From a virus, in the IMG/VR virus record IMGVR_UViG_3300007541_000130, positions 1-29,225 of that record: DNA of 29,225 nt; one strand, written 5' to 3'. The position numbers and the translations under genes are program-made. The number at the start of each line of letters is the position of its first letter. Position 1 is the stretch's first letter. The notes under the pieces are model-generated. The model saw only the letters and a program-made list of their open reading frames with translations, had not been told where the DNA came from and ran no database searches. Below are positions 2,339 through 21,426 of this stretch, one piece after another.

Positions 2339-3910
2339 ATGGAATATAATAACCCTAGTGAGATAGTTAAAGATCTGACTTTCGATAAAGAAGCAGCAGA
2401 TAAAATAATGGAGGGAGTGAGGAAGCTGACGCAAGCCGTCGGCTCCACTCTCGGTGCATCTGGAAAATGCGTTATATATGAAGATGCTTTAGGCAAGCCG
2501 GTAATAACAAAAGATGGCGTTACGGTTGCAGAGAGCGTTGTTCTTATAGATCCAGTAGAAAATATGGGAGCTACACTTATTAAGGAAGCTGCAAGAAATA
2601 CAGTTAAGCAAGCTGGGGATGGAACTACCACAGCTACAGTTTTAGCATACTCTATATTAAGGAGTCTTAGAGAGAGTAACATTGAGTTTAGAGAGCTTAA
2701 AGATGGAGTAAATAGCGCTCTTGAGAAAGTTTTAAAGTATATCGACTCAATAAAGAAAGATGTTACCGATGAAAATATAGAGGATGTTGCCACTATATCT
2801 ACAAACAATGATAGTGAGCTTGGACGTATGATAGCTGAAGCTTACAGATTTGCTGGAAAAAATGGTGTTGTTTTAATGGAGGAGTCTGAGAATGAAAAGA
2901 CTTATGTTGATTTTCAGAAGGGGGTTAATTTTGACTCTGGATTAAAATCACAACATCTTGCCACAAATGAAGAGAGTGATAAATGTGAATTGGACAATCC
3001 ATATGTTTTGATAAGTAATTCTCCAATTGAAAGTATAAGGAAGATTCAGGGAATTCTTGAGTTTGTGATTAAGGAGAAAAGAAGTCTTTTGATTATAGGA
3101 GAGTTGGCTCAGCAACCTATGTCTGCGTTATTAATGAATAAAGTAAAAGGCAATATAAAAGTTAATATTGTTGATTTGCCTGGCTTTGGCCCGACAAAAA
3201 TGGACACTCTACATGACTTAGCTTTATTGACTGGCGCTAAATTGATAGACGAGTCTCTGGGAGATGATATGGAAATAATGGATTATTCGGTGTTAGGTAC
3301 AGCATCAAAGTCGGTAACAGACAGCAAGAGTACTGTGCTTAAAATTGAAGATGATGTTTTTGGACTGGACGACAGGATTAAATCTGTTGAAGATAAGATA
3401 TCAAAAGAAGAAAATCCATTTATAAAAAAGAAATTAGAGCAAAGATTATCAATGCTTAACGGTTCTTTATCTGTTGTAAAAGTAGGAGCGCAAAGCAAGG
3501 TTGAGCTAAAGGAGAAGAAAGACAGGGTTGAAGATGCAATATACGCTGTTAAGGCCGCTCTTCAAGAAGGAATTGTTCCTGGCGGAGGGGTAGCTTTATT
3601 GAACGCATTTCATAAAGTTAAACCAAAATCTGACGCTGAAAAAGTTCTTTTGAAATCTATAACATACCCTAGTGCTAGAATTTTAATGAATGCAGGAATA
3701 CAGGTTCCTGCATGGGATGAAATAAGCAAGGCTGGATACGGGGTAGACGTTACTACAGGAAAGACAGTTAATATGATTAAAGCTGGGATAATCGATCCGG
3801 TTTTGGTTACTAAAACAGCTTTAAAAAATGCCGTTAGTGTCGCTCTTACTATAATGTCAGCGGATTGTGTTATATCAAATAAAAGAATAGGAGATGCAAG
3901 CGATAAATGA
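2339..3910 (+). CDS. groEL: Phage-encoded GroEL (Hsp60) chaperonin
   Basis: The product is 523 residues and aligns with bacterial GroEL end to end. Visible landmarks are the equatorial ATP site: TLGASGK (37-43), ITKDGVTVA (D59, the counterpart of E. coli D52) and GDGTTTATVLA with D94 (counterpart of D87). The apical domain has LLIIGE and VDLPGFGPTKMDTLHDLAL. The returning part has RVEDAIYAVKAAL, where D399 matches the ATPase residue D398, then VPGGGVALL. The E. coli-type GGM-repeat tail is missing; the protein ends SNKRIGDASDK. The key ATPase residues are intact, so it should be active as a foldase. It overlaps the groES start by 17 bases, giving the order EL-ES, the reverse of the bacterial operon. 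The likely clients are capsid, fibre or hub proteins; this is inferred from position. The call is very secure, while ring state and partner choice are unknown. Confidence 0.97.
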   Translation: MEYNNPSEIVKDLTFDKEAADKIMEGVRKLTQAVGSTLGASGKCVIYEDALGKPVITKDGVTVAESVVLIDPVENMGATLIKEAARNTVKQAGDGTTTATVLAYSILRSLRESNIEFRELKDGVNSALEKVLKYIDSIKKDVTDENIEDVATISTNNDSELGRMIAEAYRFAGKNGVVLMEESENEKTYVDFQKGVNFDSGLKSQHLATNEESDKCELDNPYVLISNSPIESIRKIQGILEFVIKEKRSLLIIGELAQQPMSALLMNKVKGNIKVNIVDLPGFGPTKMDTLHDLALLTGAKLIDESLGDDMEIMDYSVLGTASKSVTDSKSTVLKIEDDVFGLDDRIKSVEDKISKEENPFIKKKLEQRLSMLNGSLSVVKVGAQSKVELKEKKDRVEDAIYAVKAALQEGIVPGGGVALLNAFHKVKPKSDAEKVLLKSITYPSARILMNAGIQVPAWDEISKAGYGVDVTTGKTVNMIKAGIIDPVLVTKTALKNAVSVALTIMSADCVISNKRIGDASDK

Positions 3911-5838: not shown

Positions 5839-6464
5839 TGAGGAGCTTATATAGTTTTATAATAAAACCAAAAAACGAAAGGTACGAAAATTCTAAGAAA
5901 ATAGGCGATAAAGATCTTATACTTAACACAGATATGCAGAATCATGAATATGTTAGTAGGATTGGAGTTGTATTGGAAACGCCTATAAATGTTAAAACCG
6001 GAATCAAAAAAGGAGATGAGGTTGTTCTTCATCACAATGTTTTCAGGAGGTTTTACGACATAAATGGCTTAGAGAAAAATTCAAAAAGCTATTTTGACGA
6101 AAAAGAGTATTTCGTTGATTCGGATCAAATATACATGTACAAGAGAAATGGTAAGTGGATGGCGGTTGACGGATATTGTTTTGTTAAGCCATTAATGAAC
6201 ATGGAAAAATTTAGCCTATCCACAAGTTCTGATTTGAAGGGAATAATAAAGTACATGGATAATGGATTGAAGAAAAATGGTATTAAATTAAATGATTTAG
6301 TTGGATTTGTTCCGGAAAGAGAGTATGTTTTTGTAGTAGAAAACGAAATTTTATACAGAGTTCCAACAAATTCTATTTGCATAAAATATGAATATCAAGG
6401 AGACGAAAAAGAATATAATCCAAGCTGGCTACAAGGCGGTAGAGGAGTTAATAAAAGTTGCTGA
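5838..6464 (+). CDS. Putative tandem GroES-like protein (208 aa)
   Basis: The frame opens with GTG at 5838, one base into the previous stop. The first half reads like a GroES barrel: LYSFIIKPKNE (strand 1), KKIGDKDLIL (mobile-loop place), YVSRIGVVLETP (like GEVLAVG), IKKGDEVVLHHNVF (like VKVGDIVIF) and FVDSDQIYMYKRNGK (like MSESDILAIVE). A second, more divergent copy follows: GYCFVKPL, LKGIIKYMDNGLK, IKLNDLVGFVPE, EYVFVVENEILYRV and NSICIKYEY. The match is by eye and the fold is an inference. Its presence 1.7 kb after true groES raises the idea of a second or adaptor cochaperonin. It could instead be a structural protein that shares the barrel. Its 3' end overlaps the next gene by 77 bases. 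Confidence 0.5.
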   Translation: MRSLYSFIIKPKNERYENSKKIGDKDLILNTDMQNHEYVSRIGVVLETPINVKTGIKKGDEVVLHHNVFRRFYDINGLEKNSKSYFDEKEYFVDSDQIYMYKRNGKWMAVDGYCFVKPLMNMEKFSLSTSSDLKGIIKYMDNGLKKNGIKLNDLVGFVPEREYVFVVENEILYRVPTNSICIKYEYQGDEKEYNPSWLQGGRGVNKSC

Positions 6465-6666: not shown

Positions 6667-8879
6667 TGGAGTATAAACAGACGTTATTTAGTATTGTAGA
6701 TCCAATAAGAACTAACACTCTGATAAGATTAAACAAGAGTAAGTCTTGGGAGTACGGATATAATAAGGAACACGACATTGTCGTAATAAGCAAGACCGGA
6801 CAGATAGGTGAGGTTTATGAAATACAAAACTTAAAAATAGCACTTCCTCCAGCCCCAAAAGGATTGATTAAGGGTGAAAACAAATGGTCGCCTCATGATT
6901 ATCCAAAAGAGTTGGCTCAAATAAAAAGTATATTTGAATGGGACTCTTATCCAAAAGAGTTTAAGGAAAAATGGGATGAATATATCGATACTGAATTCAC
7001 CAGGCGCGAGGATGGATATTGGTTTTATAACAATGGAAAACCTACCTACATAACGGGGTCACACTACATGTATCTCCAATGGACTAAAATTGACGTTGGA
7101 AGACCAGATTTTAGAGAGGCTAATAGGCTTTTTTTTATATTTTGGGAGGCCTGCAAAGCAGATAATAGGAGTTACGGGATGTGTTATTTAAAGAATAGGC
7201 GTTCTGGATTCTCATTTATGTCGTCAGCTGAAACAGTAAATTTAGCGACTATAAAGTCTGATGCTAGATTTGGTATACTATCTAAATCTGGAGCTGACGC
7301 AAAGAAAATGTTTACAGACAAGGTTGTGCCTATATCATTGAACTATCCGTTCTTCTTTAAGCCAATACAAGATGGTATGGATAGACCTAAAACAGAATTA
7401 GCATATCGAGTGCCGGCATCGAAACTGACAAAGAAGAATATAACAAATGTCAATGATGTCAAAATGATGGAGGGTCTTGATACAACTATAGACTGGAAGA
7501 ATACAGGAGATAACTCATATGATGGTGAAAAGTTAAGTTTGCTTGTTCACGATGAAGCTGGTAAGTGGCTAAAACCAGATAACATATTAAATAACTGGAG
7601 GGTAACCAAAACAACATTAAGACTTGGCAGTAGGATTACTGGCAAATGCATGATGGGTTCGACTTCAAATGCTCTTGACAAGGGTGGTGAGAACTTTAAG
7701 AAACTATATTATGACTCCGATGTTACAAAAAGAAATAAGAATGGACAAACTCGCAGTGGATTATATAGTTTGTTCATCCCTATGGAATGGAACTACGAAG
7801 GATACATTGATTCTTTTGGACACCCTGTATTCGATACGCCGGAAGATAAAACTTTTGGACCTCTTGGAGACGAAATCGAAATAGGAGTAATAGAACATTG
7901 GGAAAATGAAGCAGACGGACTAAAAGGAGATCAAGATGCTTTAAATGAGTTTTATAGACAATTCCCTAGAAATGAGCAACATGCATTCAGGGACGAAACA
8001 AAAAGCAGCATATTTAATCTTTCTAAAATATACGAGCAAATAGATTATAATGAAGGCATTGGATATTCAAGCGTTATAACGAAGGGCAACTTCCAATGGC
8101 AAAACGGAATAAGAGACAGTAAGGTTTTGTTTGTTCCCGACAACAATGGAAGGTTTAAGGTGTCGTGGGTACCAAGTATAAATTTACAAAACCATGTAAT
8201 AGAAAAAAACGGAGTTAAATACCCAGGTAATGAACATATCGGAGCTTTTGGCTGTGATAGCTACGACATATCGGGAACTGTAGATAAAAGAGGTTCCAAG
8301 GGAGCGTTACACGGGTTGACTAAGTTTAATATGGATGATGCTCCAAGCAATTCTTTTTTTCTTGAATACGTAGCAAGGCCTCAAACAGCTGAAATTTTCT
8401 TTGAGGATGTTTTAATGGCATTAATATTTTATGGTATGCCAATACTTGCCGAGAATAATAAGCCTAGATTATTGTATTATATAAAAAGAAGGGGATATAG
8501 GGGTTTTTCAATGAATAGACCAGATAAAACCTTTACTAAGTTGTCTCCTGCGGAGAAAGAAATAGGTGGCATACCTAACTCTGGAGAAGATATAAAGCAA
8601 GCTCACGCTGCGGCTATAGAGAGTTATATAGATAAATATGTTGGACATGTTGGTGATGGGAATTACGGCACAATGTATTTTGATAGAACTCTTCAGGATT
8701 GGGCTGGATTTGACATAAACAATAGAACAAAGTACGACGCGGCCATAAGTTCTGGGTTAGCTATAATGGCCTGTAACAGGCATTTGTATAAACCAAATGA
8801 CGATAAAAAAGTTAAAACACTTGATTTTAGCTTCAAAAAATACAATAACTCTGGAGCTTTTTCAAAAATACTACGATAA
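6663..8879 (+). CDS. terL: Terminase large subunit (packaging ATPase-nuclease)
   Basis: The protein is 738 residues. The N-terminal ATPase has a degenerate Walker A at about 177-184 (KNRRSGFS), Walker B LLVHDEAGKW with D297-E298, and a coupling motif GSTSNALDKGG. The C-terminal RNase H-like nuclease shows FGCDSYDIS (D532) and the closing NRTKYDAAISSGLA with D692 after DWAGFDIN; a Glu in TAEIFFEDV may be the middle acidic residue. It pumps DNA through the portal into the empty head and cuts concatemers. The Walker A has RRSGFS in place of the classic GKS/T, as is common in phage terminases. The portal gene starts on the next base after its stop. The length is somewhat above the usual 500-650 because of an N-terminal extension of roughly 100 residues before the ATPase fold. 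Confidence 0.92.
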   Translation: MMEYKQTLFSIVDPIRTNTLIRLNKSKSWEYGYNKEHDIVVISKTGQIGEVYEIQNLKIALPPAPKGLIKGENKWSPHDYPKELAQIKSIFEWDSYPKEFKEKWDEYIDTEFTRREDGYWFYNNGKPTYITGSHYMYLQWTKIDVGRPDFREANRLFFIFWEACKADNRSYGMCYLKNRRSGFSFMSSAETVNLATIKSDARFGILSKSGADAKKMFTDKVVPISLNYPFFFKPIQDGMDRPKTELAYRVPASKLTKKNITNVNDVKMMEGLDTTIDWKNTGDNSYDGEKLSLLVHDEAGKWLKPDNILNNWRVTKTTLRLGSRITGKCMMGSTSNALDKGGENFKKLYYDSDVTKRNKNGQTRSGLYSLFIPMEWNYEGYIDSFGHPVFDTPEDKTFGPLGDEIEIGVIEHWENEADGLKGDQDALNEFYRQFPRNEQHAFRDETKSSIFNLSKIYEQIDYNEGIGYSSVITKGNFQWQNGIRDSKVLFVPDNNGRFKVSWVPSINLQNHVIEKNGVKYPGNEHIGAFGCDSYDISGTVDKRGSKGALHGLTKFNMDDAPSNSFFLEYVARPQTAEIFFEDVLMALIFYGMPILAENNKPRLLYYIKRRGYRGFSMNRPDKTFTKLSPAEKEIGGIPNSGEDIKQAHAAAIESYIDKYVGHVGDGNYGTMYFDRTLQDWAGFDINNRTKYDAAISSGLAIMACNRHLYKPNDDKKVKTLDFSFKKYNNSGAFSKILR

Positions 8880-11311: not shown

Positions 11312-12379
11312 ATGTCTGAAATACAAGAACAACTACAGAAAGAACAAGAAGGATCTATTCAAGAAAGAGAAACTAAGGTGCTTGAAAAAGCAGGAGTCAA
11401 AATAGATGACAATACTTATAAGTTAGACTTAAAAAATGCCGTTCAAAAACAAAGCCCAGATGAAAGCGTGCTACGCGAAGAAGAGCCCAAAGTGGAATTG
11501 CAAAAAATGGTCGGCAAAGACAACGAACAACTTGAAGAAGGTAAAGAAGAAGCAATAGAACTTATAAACGAAGAAGAAGATGAGCTGTATAGCAAAAAAA
11601 GTAAAGAAAATGAAGAGCAGCCAGTTCAAAATGAAACAAGGCAGCAAGAAACCCAAGCAGAAGTACGGGAAATAAACCTTCCAGAAAATATACAGAGCTT
11701 AGTGCAGTTTATGAATGAAACTGGAGGTAGTCTAGAAGATTACATTCGACTAAGCGCTGATTATTCCAAAGTAGATGATTTGGCTCTATTAAGGGAGTAT
11801 TACAAACAAACAAAACCGCATCTAGATAGAGACGAAATAGATTTTTTAATAGAAGATCAATTTGCTTTTGATGAAGATTTAGATAGCGATAAAGATATAA
11901 AAAGAAAGAAGCTTGCTTATAAGCAGGAGTTAAATGGAGCAAGGGAGTTTCTTTCAGGATTAAAAGATAGATATTATCAAGAAGTCAAGTCAAGGCCAAG
12001 CTTAAGTCAAGAGGCTAAAAACGCTATTGACTTCTTTAATAAATACAAAGAACAGCAGGATGAGCTAACTGCTATTCAGAAGCAACAATCTGAACGTTTT
12101 ACAAAGATGACTAATGAAGTTTTTCACGATGAATTCAAAGGTTTTGATTTCAAAGTCGGGGATAATAGATATAGGTTCAAAGTAAATGATGTTCAGCAAG
12201 CTAAAAATTCGCAGCTTGATCTTGTTAAAGCGTTCGGGACGTTCCTTAACGAAGACAACAGTATAAAAGATGCGTATGGTTATCATAAAGCTGTATTTGT
12301 TGCTAGAAATGCAGATTCAATAGTTAATCACTTTCATGAGCAAGGAAAGGCTGATGCTATAAGACAATTAGAAGCCTAG
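11312..12379 (+). CDS. Putative capsid scaffold protein
   Basis: This 355-residue protein is very rich in Glu, Gln, Lys and Asp, especially in the first 130 residues (KEQEGSIQERETK, LINEEEDELYSKKSKE). A more ordered middle follows: LPENIQSLVQFMNETGGSL, EDYIRLSADYSKVDDLALL, REYYKQTKPHLDRDEIDFL. The C-terminal part is a helical region with FHDEFKGFDFKVGDNRYRF. It lies between portal and major capsid protein, the usual scaffold position. It would guide capsid assembly from inside the procapsid and then leave or be degraded. I see no protease motif, so a maturation protease is not apparent in the window. The gene ends in TAG, and the reading frame stays open for another 40 codons beyond it to TAA at 12500. 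Confidence 0.72.
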   Translation: MSEIQEQLQKEQEGSIQERETKVLEKAGVKIDDNTYKLDLKNAVQKQSPDESVLREEEPKVELQKMVGKDNEQLEEGKEEAIELINEEEDELYSKKSKENEEQPVQNETRQQETQAEVREINLPENIQSLVQFMNETGGSLEDYIRLSADYSKVDDLALLREYYKQTKPHLDRDEIDFLIEDQFAFDEDLDSDKDIKRKKLAYKQELNGAREFLSGLKDRYYQEVKSRPSLSQEAKNAIDFFNKYKEQQDELTAIQKQQSERFTKMTNEVFHDEFKGFDFKVGDNRYRFKVNDVQQAKNSQLDLVKAFGTFLNEDNSIKDAYGYHKAVFVARNADSIVNHFHEQGKADAIRQLEA

Positions 12380-16347: not shown

Positions 16348-19300
16348 ATGCCAGAAATTAAGAATAGTTTCCTTCAAGGAAAGCTAAATAAAGATCTAGA
16401 ATCAAGAATTGTTCCTAACGGTCAGTATACAGATGCTTTAAATGTGCAGATTTCGAAATCTGAATCTGACGGAGTTGGATTGTTACATAATGTGAAGGGC
16501 AACAAGGTTGTTGCTGATTTGTCTTTAGATTCAAGTCACGAGATAATAGGAAGTATTTTTGACGACAAAAACAACAGGATCTTTTGGTTTGTGACTAATG
16601 GATCTTCAAATAATTATATATACGTATGGTCTCCAGACTCTTCTTCTAGTCTGAATACTCCTTTAAGAATAGTTTCTGGATCTTTCCTTAATTTCAGTAA
16701 GTCAAATATTATAACTGGAATCAATATAATAGAAGATTTTCTTTTTTGGACTGACAATCTTAATCCTCCAAGAAGGATCAATGTAGAGAGGGCTATATCG
16801 AACACATCGTATTATAATTCAGAAGTAAAAATAAGCGTAGCGAAATATGCTCCATACCAGGCCCCAATAATATTATCAGCAGAGCACGATCCAGACATAA
16901 AGTCAAAAAGAATAGAGGAGGAATTTGTGAGATTTGCTTATAGATATAAATTTAGGGACAATGAATACTCTGTGCTATCCCCGTTCACATCGATAGTCTT
17001 TCAAATGGACGATAGCGGAGGCGATATTCCAACCATAAGCGAAGATGTTAATTATATAGGTCTCGATGGATTGAGAGGTCTTGGAGCCTCTACTATGATG
17101 ACTGTAATGGTTAATCATATCAATAAGATATCATTTGAAATACCAATGCCCCCAAACCACTACTCTGATTATGAAATAAAAGAGGTTGAAATATTATACA
17201 AAGAATCTGACAGCATTGCTATAAGAATAATGGATTCTATAGATGTTTCAGAAATAAACACTGTACAGTATGTGTATAAATCTTCTAATTTCAAATCAAC
17301 ACTTCCGGAATCTCAACTGACAAGAGTTTTCGATGCCGTTCCAAGCAGGGCTCTTGCTCAGGAGGTAGCTGGCAATAGGATAATATACGGAAATATAACG
17401 TCAAACTTAGATCTTCCTAATATAAAATTTAGAGTGTTCAACTCAAAAAAAGGACAAGACTCTTTAAACGACCCCTCTGTAAAGCATCAAAGCATAAAGC
17501 AGAGAAGGACATATGATGTTGGAATTGTGCTTTCAGATATTTTTGGAAGAACATCTCCAGTAATAACTTCAGAAAATTCATCTGTTTACGTTGGGGCTAA
17601 AGACAAGAAGTTTGACAACTCATCTTTCGTCGGGGATTCTTTAAAGATGTTATTTACCGAAATAACAGACCCAAAAGGAACTATATACAATGCACAGACA
17701 AATCCATTTGGATGGTATTCCTATAAGGTAGTTGTTAAGCAATCTGAGCAAGAATATTATAACACATATATCCCAGGAATAGTTAATTATAATGGTGCCG
17801 CTGGATACTTTGTTATACACGGAGATAACGTAAATAAAATACCAAGAACATCGGACGGAGTTGAATTTCAAGATGAGTTTTCTTACTCCAAGACCAAAAT
17901 ATATCCTAAAGTAGTTAACTACACTAATAATGGCGTTTCTTCTTTTAGAAATTCAAACTATAGATTGCTTGACATAACCGAAATAGGCAAATTGTCACAG
18001 CACAAACTTCCGTCTACATCAAAGCTGTTTGAGTACACTAAAGACCACCTTATAGCAAAAATACCAGTAAAGACTGGTCAATTCTATAACAACATAACAG
18101 AGGGCGGAAGCTTCGCTGTTTTTGAAACAGAGCCATTTAAGTCCTCATTAGACATATATTACGAAACACCTACATCTGGATTGTTATCTGATATTCAAAT
18201 ATCTCCAATAACACTTAATAGACTTTCTGTCAGCGAAACAAATAGCTCTGCTTCTTCCGTTTCGGTTCCAGAAGATTCATTACCAGACGAAAGTCTTGTT
18301 TGTTACGTGTACGCATGGGACGACGAATTAAACAGGATACCAGGATCTTTAATAAATATGTCCCTGTCAAGTCAAACTTATTCCGGAAGGTTTGGGCTTA
18401 GATACAGTCAATCTCAAGGTGAGTGGGAGATATATCTAAAAGAGACTTTTGCTTATAATGGGGTAACATCTTCTTCGATAACAGTCAATGCCTCTCTCAT
18501 AGATTATCCTTCTGAAACAGCTTCGCTGTCTATTTCTGCGTCTCTTACAGATGTTGAGCCTGAAATGGCTGTAACTTCTACTGGTATAGTTTACTATTTA
18601 GATAAAAAGCAAACTGGCCCAAATGAGTATACTGGAGAGGTAGAGGCTCAAGGGTACTTGACGAAAGCTTGTGGAGTCGCAAATGACCCGACATTAGAAA
18701 GCGTTCTGTTCAAGGCTTTTGGAACCAATGGGTCAGCACACACAATAGATAGTAAAACCGACTTAGAATATACAATAACAAAAAGAGTTTACCAGCCTGA
18801 ATCAGATGTTTTATATAGCTCAAATCCTTCTTGGGTTAATAATTTTAAATTTATAGCCGACAGAGACATAAACTCACAAGGAATAATAGTCGATACTGCA
18901 TCTGGGACAGGATTCTTTTTTTACGAAACAGAAATAGGATTTACATACAATTCAGACGGAATAATTGATTATGAAAACCTAGATTCATCTCCGTTGCCTA
19001 CTGGATTTTACCATGTTTTGACAGATACTGGTCAACCAACTGGAGTGTATGTTGCGGATATGCTTCTTGAAATATATGTAAGAGATAGAGATGGAGCTGG
19101 AAGCAGGTACCCTCCTAATAATCAAGTCATCTCAGTTGTTGTTTCTCTTGTCAAAATATCTCAAGTAATTAGTAAAACTCCTAGAGAGCTATGCTATAGG
19201 TCTAGCACTATATTAAATGCAAACGATCCATCTTTAACAGACAGTAACGTTGATTCTGATAAGGTTTACAAATATAATTACGATGGGGATGGGCTTGTGA

Positions 19301-20211
19301 ATATGAACTGCAGAAAGGCTCAATGTAGGGATGCCAATAATCAGGTTATATATAGGTATGATGTTGATGGAATAACTGAAAATCCTCTTTGTGCTACATT
19401 GACTTGTAACGATGTGGACGGAAGAGAGATCCCGGCATACTTAGAAGATGATTACCAAAATCAGATACCAAATCCAGATTGTTATGAGGCTCCAGAGCCA
19501 AATTCTCTATGCACTAGATTAGATGGAACTACAATAGAAGATTGTTGTACAGATGCCGATAGAAATCCAGCTTCTCCTACATATGGTCAGGTTATAGAGG
19601 TTACATGCCCAGAGGTTCCTAGAGATCCAGACACAACTACAGTGGATCCAACTGACGAAACTACAGTTGGTTCTGATGGAAATGATTTTAGGGACTTCTT
19701 CGGAAATGTTCTTTGGTACGCCCCGTATTACACAGCAGACTCTAATGATCCTAGTGGATATAGAGTTACATTTGACAATATTTATGACGCATGTGATTCA
19801 ACCCCAAGAGCTGATGGTAGCACTCCATGGGTAAGGGCGACAGTTTATTTTGCTGGAGGAGTCAATGAAGATCCAATGGTTATTACAACATCAGCCGGCT
19901 CTCATCCATGGCCAATATACGCTGATTCGTCGTTGAATACTCCTGCGGCAAATGGATGGTACAGAAGAACCGACACTGGTGTTATTGGAAGATTCTCTTG
20001 GCAGTCAAATGCTCCAAGTTTAGCTGATCAAAATTGGGGATGGTTTATCGACCCAATTCCTTGTGCAAGTGTAACTCCTCCAGACCCAAATGAACCTGTA
20101 TGGACAAGGCCTGATGGAGGAGAAAATGTCGTTGTTACTGAAGATAATACAACAACCCAATGGGCTAGCCCATATACTGGAACAGGAGATAGACAAACAA
20201 ACGTACCTTAG
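16348..20211 (+). CDS. Giant tail-hub / stabilisation protein, N-terminal part
   Basis: The protein is 1287 residues. It starts MPEIKNSFLQGKLNKDLES and RIVPNGQYTDALNVQ, the signature start of a large virion hub family found in many marine short-tailed phages (from memory). Residues 1 to about 610 look like a propeller-rich hub (IIGSIFDDKNNRIFWFV, EDFLFWTDNLNPPRRINVE). About 615-760 has Ser/Thr-rich Ig-like strands. Residues 949-1087 hold ten Cys in a repeated pattern. The last part is another small beta domain (ANGWYRRTDTGVIG, QNWGWFIDPIPC). It ends in TAG, and the next gene begins one codon later in the same frame; the related long proteins I recall continue without a break. It probably forms the tail hub below the connector. 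The split is discussed as a finding. Confidence 0.75.
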   Translation: MPEIKNSFLQGKLNKDLESRIVPNGQYTDALNVQISKSESDGVGLLHNVKGNKVVADLSLDSSHEIIGSIFDDKNNRIFWFVTNGSSNNYIYVWSPDSSSSLNTPLRIVSGSFLNFSKSNIITGINIIEDFLFWTDNLNPPRRINVERAISNTSYYNSEVKISVAKYAPYQAPIILSAEHDPDIKSKRIEEEFVRFAYRYKFRDNEYSVLSPFTSIVFQMDDSGGDIPTISEDVNYIGLDGLRGLGASTMMTVMVNHINKISFEIPMPPNHYSDYEIKEVEILYKESDSIAIRIMDSIDVSEINTVQYVYKSSNFKSTLPESQLTRVFDAVPSRALAQEVAGNRIIYGNITSNLDLPNIKFRVFNSKKGQDSLNDPSVKHQSIKQRRTYDVGIVLSDIFGRTSPVITSENSSVYVGAKDKKFDNSSFVGDSLKMLFTEITDPKGTIYNAQTNPFGWYSYKVVVKQSEQEYYNTYIPGIVNYNGAAGYFVIHGDNVNKIPRTSDGVEFQDEFSYSKTKIYPKVVNYTNNGVSSFRNSNYRLLDITEIGKLSQHKLPSTSKLFEYTKDHLIAKIPVKTGQFYNNITEGGSFAVFETEPFKSSLDIYYETPTSGLLSDIQISPITLNRLSVSETNSSASSVSVPEDSLPDESLVCYVYAWDDELNRIPGSLINMSLSSQTYSGRFGLRYSQSQGEWEIYLKETFAYNGVTSSSITVNASLIDYPSETASLSISASLTDVEPEMAVTSTGIVYYLDKKQTGPNEYTGEVEAQGYLTKACGVANDPTLESVLFKAFGTNGSAHTIDSKTDLEYTITKRVYQPESDVLYSSNPSWVNNFKFIADRDINSQGIIVDTASGTGFFFYETEIGFTYNSDGIIDYENLDSSPLPTGFYHVLTDTGQPTGVYVADMLLEIYVRDRDGAGSRYPPNNQVISVVVSLVKISQVISKTPRELCYRSSTILNANDPSLTDSNVDSDKVYKYNYDGDGLVNMNCRKAQCRDANNQVIYRYDVDGITENPLCATLTCNDVDGREIPAYLEDDYQNQIPNPDCYEAPEPNSLCTRLDGTTIEDCCTDADRNPASPTYGQVIEVTCPEVPRDPDTTTVDPTDETTVGSDGNDFRDFFGNVLWYAPYYTADSNDPSGYRVTFDNIYDACDSTPRADGSTPWVRATVYFAGGVNEDPMVITTSAGSHPWPIYADSSLNTPAANGWYRRTDTGVIGRFSWQSNAPSLADQNWGWFIDPIPCASVTPPDPNEPVWTRPDGGENVVVTEDNTTTQWASPYTGTGDRQTNVP
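19192..19608 (+). repeat. Cys-rich repeated module inside the hub protein
   Basis: Residues 949-1087 of the hub protein contain ten cysteines. At least three units share an aromatic/acidic strand followed by an Asn-rich turn and a Cys: KVYKYNYDGDGLVNMNC, QVIYRYDVDGITENPLC and the longer REIPAYLEDDYQNQIPNPDC. Two short units (CTRLDGTTIEDCC and one ending VIEVTC) follow. The units are diverged, so this is a protein-level repeat rather than a DNA repeat. Confidence 0.6.
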
Positions 20212-20214
20212 AAA

Positions 20215-21426
20215 ATGGCTTATATAAAAGAAATAAAGTATTTTAATTGCTTTTTGATAAAAGACGCTGATAATAGATTTCACATAGAGGAGTCCAGAAT
20301 AAAGGGTGACTTTAATGGGAAAAGTGTTGATTATGGTGTTAGAGCTCATATAACGGACCCGGAATACGCTCAAGAAACTAGGGAAAACGCTATGATACAC
20401 TCAGGCGTATATAACAGTAGGACTGGAGTTAATAATCTAAATCAGTTTCCTATAGATCAAGCTATAACAATATCTGTAGATATTCAGCAGGGATCAATAC
20501 AAAAGCTTTTTGCTGAAGACCAGGTGTTAAACATATTCCAAGAGGAAAAGGTTAGATATGTTCCTATAGATAAGGATATAATATATACAGCAGAAGGAGT
20601 TCCGCTTTCTGCAGCAAGTAATGTATTTCTTGGTGATGTAGTAGCTTACGGAACAAATTACGGAATAGGAAAAAATCCAGAAAGCTTCTCAAGTTATTCA
20701 GGTCGTAAATACTTTGTAGATAAGCCCAAAGGCGCTGTTCTTAGACTATCTAGAGATGGCATAACAGAAATATCGGATTATGGGATGAGGAGTTTCTTTA
20801 GGAACAATCTATCAAACTCAAGCAGGATTTATACCGCATGGGATATACATAGTAAGGATTTGATTGTCACAGTAATAAAGCCAACAGACAGCTTTACAGT
20901 AGCATTTGATGAATCCGTAAATGGATGGTCTTCTTTTTTTAGTTATATACCAAGTGGTTTTTCTGGAAGCATAGACGGAAAGTTTTATACGTTTAAAGGA
21001 GTTGACTTGTATGAGCATCATGCCACGGATTATTACAATAGATTTTATGGTCAAGATCATGAATCTTATGTTGAATTCGTACTTAACGCGAATCCTTCCT
21101 TAAACAAAAACTTTCTTACTATTAATTATGAAGGCTCTGATTCGTGGAATATATCTAATATAGAAACAGACACAGATATAGCCTTCCCGATACCTGAATA
21201 TAGTATATATAATGAAGATTTGCTCATGTCTGCATTCCAAAAAAATAACAATAAGTATTATTCAAATTTAATAAATGCATCAGAACCTTCTGGGGGCGAG
21301 GTAGACTTTGGTGGGTCTATGTCTGGAATAAAAGGATACTACGCAAAAGTAAAAGCAGAGACTAGATCTTCTGACTACAAGGAGCTGTTTTCTGTTTCAT
21401 CAAATTATAATCCAAATAGTTACTGA
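20215..21426 (+). CDS. Tail-hub / stabilisation protein, C-terminal part
   Basis: The protein is 403 residues. It has ESRIKGDFNGKSVDYGVRA, ENAMIHSGVYNSRTGVNNL, SIQKLFAEDQVLNIFQEEK, IDKDIIYTAEGVPLSAASN, YGIGKNPESFSSYSGRKYF and LRLSRDGITEISDYGM, then SFTVAFDESVNGWSSFFSY and YEGSDSWNISNIE. From memory this block is the C-terminal half of the same large hub family as the preceding gene, usually fused to it. It reads like a beta-propeller. Here the reading frame is the same as upstream and only TAG AAA separates the two coding parts. It may be made as a separate subunit by re-initiation, or as part of a 1691-residue product if TAG is read through. No strong Shine-Dalgarno site precedes its ATG. 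Confidence 0.75.
   Translation: MAYIKEIKYFNCFLIKDADNRFHIEESRIKGDFNGKSVDYGVRAHITDPEYAQETRENAMIHSGVYNSRTGVNNLNQFPIDQAITISVDIQQGSIQKLFAEDQVLNIFQEEKVRYVPIDKDIIYTAEGVPLSAASNVFLGDVVAYGTNYGIGKNPESFSSYSGRKYFVDKPKGAVLRLSRDGITEISDYGMRSFFRNNLSNSSRIYTAWDIHSKDLIVTVIKPTDSFTVAFDESVNGWSSFFSYIPSGFSGSIDGKFYTFKGVDLYEHHATDYYNRFYGQDHESYVEFVLNANPSLNKNFLTINYEGSDSWNISNIETDTDIAFPIPEYSIYNEDLLMSAFQKNNNKYYSNLINASEPSGGEVDFGGSMSGIKGYYAKVKAETRSSDYKELFSVSSNYNPNSY

Follow-up and report, generated by a model that had tools for sequence, protein, structure and literature searches.

The muzzle is the tail-tip gate of crassviruses, a group in which 'hub' denotes the fibre-docking proteins (PMC10172136). It is both the gate and the probable cell-contact part of the crassvirus tail, and in the open-licence literature has been described only as one chain. 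In phicrAss001 it is represented by gp44, a single polypeptide of 1371 amino acids which occurs as a hexamer at the tail tip (PDB 7QOK/7QOL; PMC10172136). Single ORFs of 1324-1493 aa likewise encode the muzzles of Cellulophaga phage phi38:1, Tenacibaculum phage Gundel_1 and the Flavobacterium elemo phages. Variation in muzzle length through insertions into the crass and IG2 domains is only mentioned (PMC10172136), and full-text searches of the open-licence literature yielded no paper describing a split crassvirus muzzle. A two-piece design seems not to have been described previously, its novelty being provisional.

The window analysed here, comprising the entire 29,225 nucleotides of IMG/VR virus record IMGVR_UViG_3300007541_000130 (positions 1-29,225), is a genome fragment in which two plus-strand genes make up the muzzle. 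ORF1 (16348..20211; ATG...TAG) encodes the N-terminal chain of 1287 aa, assigned on the basis of a homologue tree and a match to phrog_14478 (E 2.4e-60; residues 4-356 to profile positions 1-339). The C-terminal chain of 403 aa is encoded by ORF2 (20215..21426; ATG...TGA), which matches the same profile at positions 906-1256 with its residues 6-351 (E 6e-47), as well as the crassvirus muzzle C-terminal domain PF25729 (crAss_MUZ_C; E 6e-10). The original prediction, that the two ORFs are parts of one protein family, is thus borne out by matches to the N and C parts of a single profile, while the name 'hub' which it gave that family was wrong, the match to PF25729 identifying the family as that of the muzzle gp44. 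No match was obtained in a PDB sequence search with ORF1 or ORF2 as query. The flanking genes are crAss-like and code for a terminase, a portal and virion structural proteins, two virion structural genes lying directly before ORF1, so that the gene order of terminase, portal, virion structural genes and muzzle is retained. The locus resembles that of phicrAss001 in family, in a gene place after the ring protein genes and in a match between the C-half HMM and gp44 (E 9e-17), and resembles those of phi38:1, Gundel_1 and the elemo phages in the homology of both its N-terminal and C-terminal parts and in its gene neighbourhood. It differs from all of these in not encoding a single polypeptide, since the window, like 85 related loci, divides the muzzle over two genes. 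As homology and gene place define the muzzle family, the two-gene form is a split variant of it.

ORF1 and ORF2 share one reading frame, and the coordinates confirm that only the TAG (20209..20211, plus strand) and an AAA codon stand before the ATG at 20215. A same-frame layout is expected by chance in one case out of three, and it is not kept in the relatives. No clear Shine-Dalgarno sequence precedes ORF2, and few genes in the window have one. Relatives of ORF2 were collected from IMG/VR, and the junctions of the loci compared (labelled with L-numbers) were read. Eighty-six loci, window included, were classed as split and thirty-one as fused, which does not represent a population frequency, as loci were retained by the strength of their match to an alignment composed mostly of split sequences. 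Maribacter phage Panino (L002; PP540027.1) was left out of the 86 split loci, being broken elsewhere in the gene. Its muzzle, deposited as two annotated CDS, is interrupted by a frame change at a C-TTTTT-C stretch (~12261-12282) just past the conserved GSIQKLF, which may reflect a sequencing indel, a real break or frameshifting. A frame break in the N-terminal part of ORF1 in L010 (about 6140-6194), which is intact in the near-copies L009 and L011, is probably an assembly error.

Among the split loci, the nearest relatives (65-71 % identical in ORF2) are separated at the same point as the window, with a TAA stop for ORF1 and with ORF2 in another frame. The closest split relatives more broadly (45-71 % identity to ORF2) are also broken at this place by differing junctions, namely a TAATG overlap in L006, TAATATG in L007-L011, and gaps of +7 nt in L012, +10 nt in L015 and L019 and +34 nt in L018. 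The ends of ORF1 align as x-P-stop (...NVP in the window, ...PEP in L006 and ...NIP in L008) and differ in frame and in stop codon, which is TAG in the window and TAA in both relatives. After removal of duplicates, seventy distinct junctions showed relative frames of 21/18/31 (chi-square p 0.14 against equal use), with ORF1 ending in TAA at 48 and in TAG at 22. The gap at ordinary junctions ranges from -1 to 47 nt, with a spacer that is often below 10 nt, and 17/20 of the other in-frame junctions have further in-frame stops within it. Extra coding sequence separates the muzzle halves in L132, as a 324-aa ORF (7017-7991), and in L129 and L138, as ~390 nt containing an ORF (about 7611-7999). A Met-Ala start of ORF2 is common to the window and other split relatives. 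Comparison with L006 gave a dN of 0.35 for the ORF1 core, a rough value since dS is saturated, and a dN of 0.21 with a similarly saturated and thus rough dS of ~2.9 for ORF2, and these values fit purifying selection on both coding sequences.

It is thus very probable that the muzzle is encoded here by two adjacent genes, which arose by an old fission and would give a two-chain subunit, and that the in-frame position of the TAG in the window is coincidental. The split is conserved at the same place in a large clade of aquatic crAss-like phages, independent of frame or stop, and the TAG simply terminates the first of two real genes. Of the explanations put forward in the original prediction, a genuine two-subunit protein is supported by the 85 related loci which are likewise split, in all three relative frames. 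Split homologues with an intervening gap, which that prediction itself named as evidence against it, thus do occur. Neither readthrough nor amber suppression late in infection finds support, and the same holds for a nonsense mutation of recent date, the relatives being split with other stops and frames. The accompanying statement that the family is normally one chain holds for phicrAss001 and the cultured relatives checked, but fails for the window's own clade.

The two genes differ from a simply divided muzzle in a long C-terminal extension of ORF1. The core of ORF1, common to one-chain muzzles (residues 1-624; 16348..18219, plus strand), is homologous to the fused relatives up to a (L)DIYYET.TSGL motif, while the extension (residues 625-1287; 18220..20208, plus strand) is missing at this point in the close fused relatives and varies among the split ones. 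Only 10-16 residues separate the motif from xIxYYNxF, which corresponds to ORF2 residue 6 onward, in close fused relatives. Across all fused relatives 2-177 residues occur at the joint, against 271-954 residues between the same motif and the ORF1 stop in split ones. Six fused loci (L013, L014, L016, L020, L022 and L076) are 50-55 % identical to ORF2, but consist of one ORF of ~1180-1220 aa with no extension at the joint. The extension is protein-coding, with conserved Cys and Trp residues, and in the window's clade it ends in a module with the pattern A-C...GWY...W..P..C (residues 1140-1240; 19765..20067, plus strand). HMM matches to this module were restricted to ORF1 of the split loci of this clade, and it was found nowhere else among the examined loci. 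No match to the tip-domain module was obtained in phage records or PHROGs, with one weak cadherin match in Pfam. AlphaFold2 modelled the extension with a mean pLDDT of 47, predicting Ig-like strands over its first ~110 residues and giving low confidence for the remainder.

The position of the break within the fold was approached through the fused homologue L020. Its AlphaFold2 model (mean pLDDT 69) has the phicrAss001 muzzle as its best Foldseek matches in the PDB (7qok_A, E 7.6e-23, and 7qol_P), placing it in the muzzle fold, although with a low overall TM-score (0.26) only the family assignment and strand order were used. The joint falls at L020 residues 771-778, within the loop that connects predicted strands 762-770 and 779-782. 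By HMM extrapolation the start of ORF2 corresponds to approximately residues 960-980 of gp44, a rough mapping, given how little sequence similarity to gp44 there is around the joint. In gp44 an insertion between IG2 strands G and H occupies residues 940-1012 (PMC10172136). The unbroken gp44 chain would thus be interrupted in the window roughly at the second crass-domain segment (IG2 G-H loop, about 940-1012), with an extra domain carried at the C-terminus of ORF1. The propeller would begin in ORF1, which would also contain IG1 and the greater part of IG2, including the bulk of the crass domain; the final strand of IG2 and the remainder of the propeller would be supplied by ORF2. With the propeller and IG2 divided over both chains, these would have to fold together. 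ORF1 and ORF2 may share a single message, on which translation of ORF2 would begin either by ordinary initiation or by termination-reinitiation 3 nt past the TAG. The two chains would form one muzzle subunit, since the second Ig-like domain region is interrupted in a loop and the beta-propeller needs both parts. Fission would leave free an ORF1 C-terminus bearing a long domain of variable sequence, Ig-like and with Cys residues, at the tail tip, where it would probably contact the host surface. Such a natural two-chain muzzle shows where the fold tolerates a break and singles out the domain likely to be in contact with the host.

Programmed readthrough of the TAG, or amber suppression late in infection, would give a short ORF1 product and a long ORF1+ORF2 product. 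The TAG, the shared frame and the single codon from stop to ATG accord with this in the window's phage, but frame and stop differ in all of its nearest relatives, and it is very improbable. The long form would insert 660 extra residues into the IG2/crass region, where no close fused relative has them, and neither the window, a fragment without tRNA genes, nor four related contigs contain a tRNA with a CUA anticodon. A suppressor tRNA may lie elsewhere in the window's genome, but nothing calls for one. In a readthrough gene the downstream frame would be expected to be kept among relatives, but it is near random at the 70 junctions. Together with the further stops in the gaps of most in-frame relatives and the whole ORF between the halves of L132, this means that the conserved functional form cannot be a readthrough product. 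From the sequence, a low level of readthrough is conceivable in the window's phage alone.

Recoding of TAG to an amino acid (genetic code 15), which would make ORF1 and ORF2 one gene in truth, has a precedent among gut crAss-like phages, which use TAG or TGA recoding with suppressor tRNAs, mostly in late genes (PMC7886860; PMC9523058). While the TAG-recoded phages are also crAss-like and have stops inside late genes, the window gives no sign of recoding. TAG is not avoided as a stop, ending three other genes (5838, 12379 and 26128) with 0, 40 and 6 codons to the next in-frame stop. Furthermore, the large genes are full length, no recognised gene of the window has an internal TAG, and in relatives the split involves TAA and other frames, so that recoding is extremely unlikely. 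A recent nonsense mutation or a sequencing error in a one-chain gene could account for a lone in-frame stop where 1691 codons are otherwise open, given that one-chain relatives exist. This is scarcely credible, however, as the split occurs at the same place in the closest relatives (L006, L008, L011 and L012), close one-chain relatives lack at this point the region that precedes the TAG, and ORF2 has the start shared by split relatives. Removal of the extension as an intron or intein, leaving one chain after all, is hardly tenable: such elements are known in crAss-like phages (PMC7886860) and the insert is missing at exactly this point in fused relatives, but it is protein-coding with conserved residues, the spacers are short, ORF2 has its own conserved Met-Ala start, no ribozyme core lies between the halves (Rfam gave no match at the window's joint, and none reaching the gathering threshold in seven relatives), searches for homing endonucleases and inteins gave no match, and a stop cannot lie within an intein.

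The history of the two adjacent genes was considered using a maximum likelihood tree of 33 core sequences under a mixture model, in which the fused L013-L022 group nests inside the split clade, so that two changes are needed. A single clade of all split members was rejected in an AU test (p 0.006), while a grouping of the eight near split members was not (p 0.23). A quick tree built from 117 sequences required three changes. Rooting on phicrAss001 gp44 was abandoned on account of the length of that branch, 4.3 changes per column. The trees favour, as the simplest history, one fission at the base of a 97-member clade followed by two re-fusions, which would most simply be those of the L013 group and of L077/L082/L085/L106, and suggest that the fused state of L013, L014, L016, L020, L022 and L076 stems from re-fusion. 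Two or more independent fissions are possible as an alternative. The simplest history would constitute a case of gene fission with apparent reversal. For annotation, the two-gene form means that the C-half of the muzzle can be missed, or labelled hypothetical, in aquatic crassviruses.

A sequence element, A[TC]AAGT[AG]AT or AC[AG]TGTAATA, occurs within 40 nt before the ORF2 start at 45/73 distinct junctions of the wider split clade (among L021-L149), mostly 17-20 nt upstream of the ATG, and is absent from the window's own clade. At other long-ORF starts of the same loci it was observed in 2/466 cases, a contrast which is descriptive, as the pattern was chosen after viewing these junctions and related sequences lack independence. 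A diversity-generating retroelement at the 3' end of ORF1 was considered in view of the variability of the tip domain and the conservation of the junction element, and was set aside as no near-identical repeat of this end was present within the loci; these span at most ~17 kb, and a template further away is conceivable. Tentatively, it may be that the two-chain muzzle of the aquatic crassvirus clade arose through one fission which allowed host-contact domains to be exchanged, with at least two re-fusions upon loss of the domain, and that in much of the wider clade the A[TC]AAGT[AG]AT element (-17 to -20) would act in cis to serve the split, for example in ORF2 start or tip-domain exchange. Elsewhere in the window, a small ORF without a Pfam match (2032-2316) lies just upstream of a gene for a phage-encoded GroEL-like chaperonin (2339-3910; phrog_5725, E 7e-130; Pfam Cpn60_TCP1).
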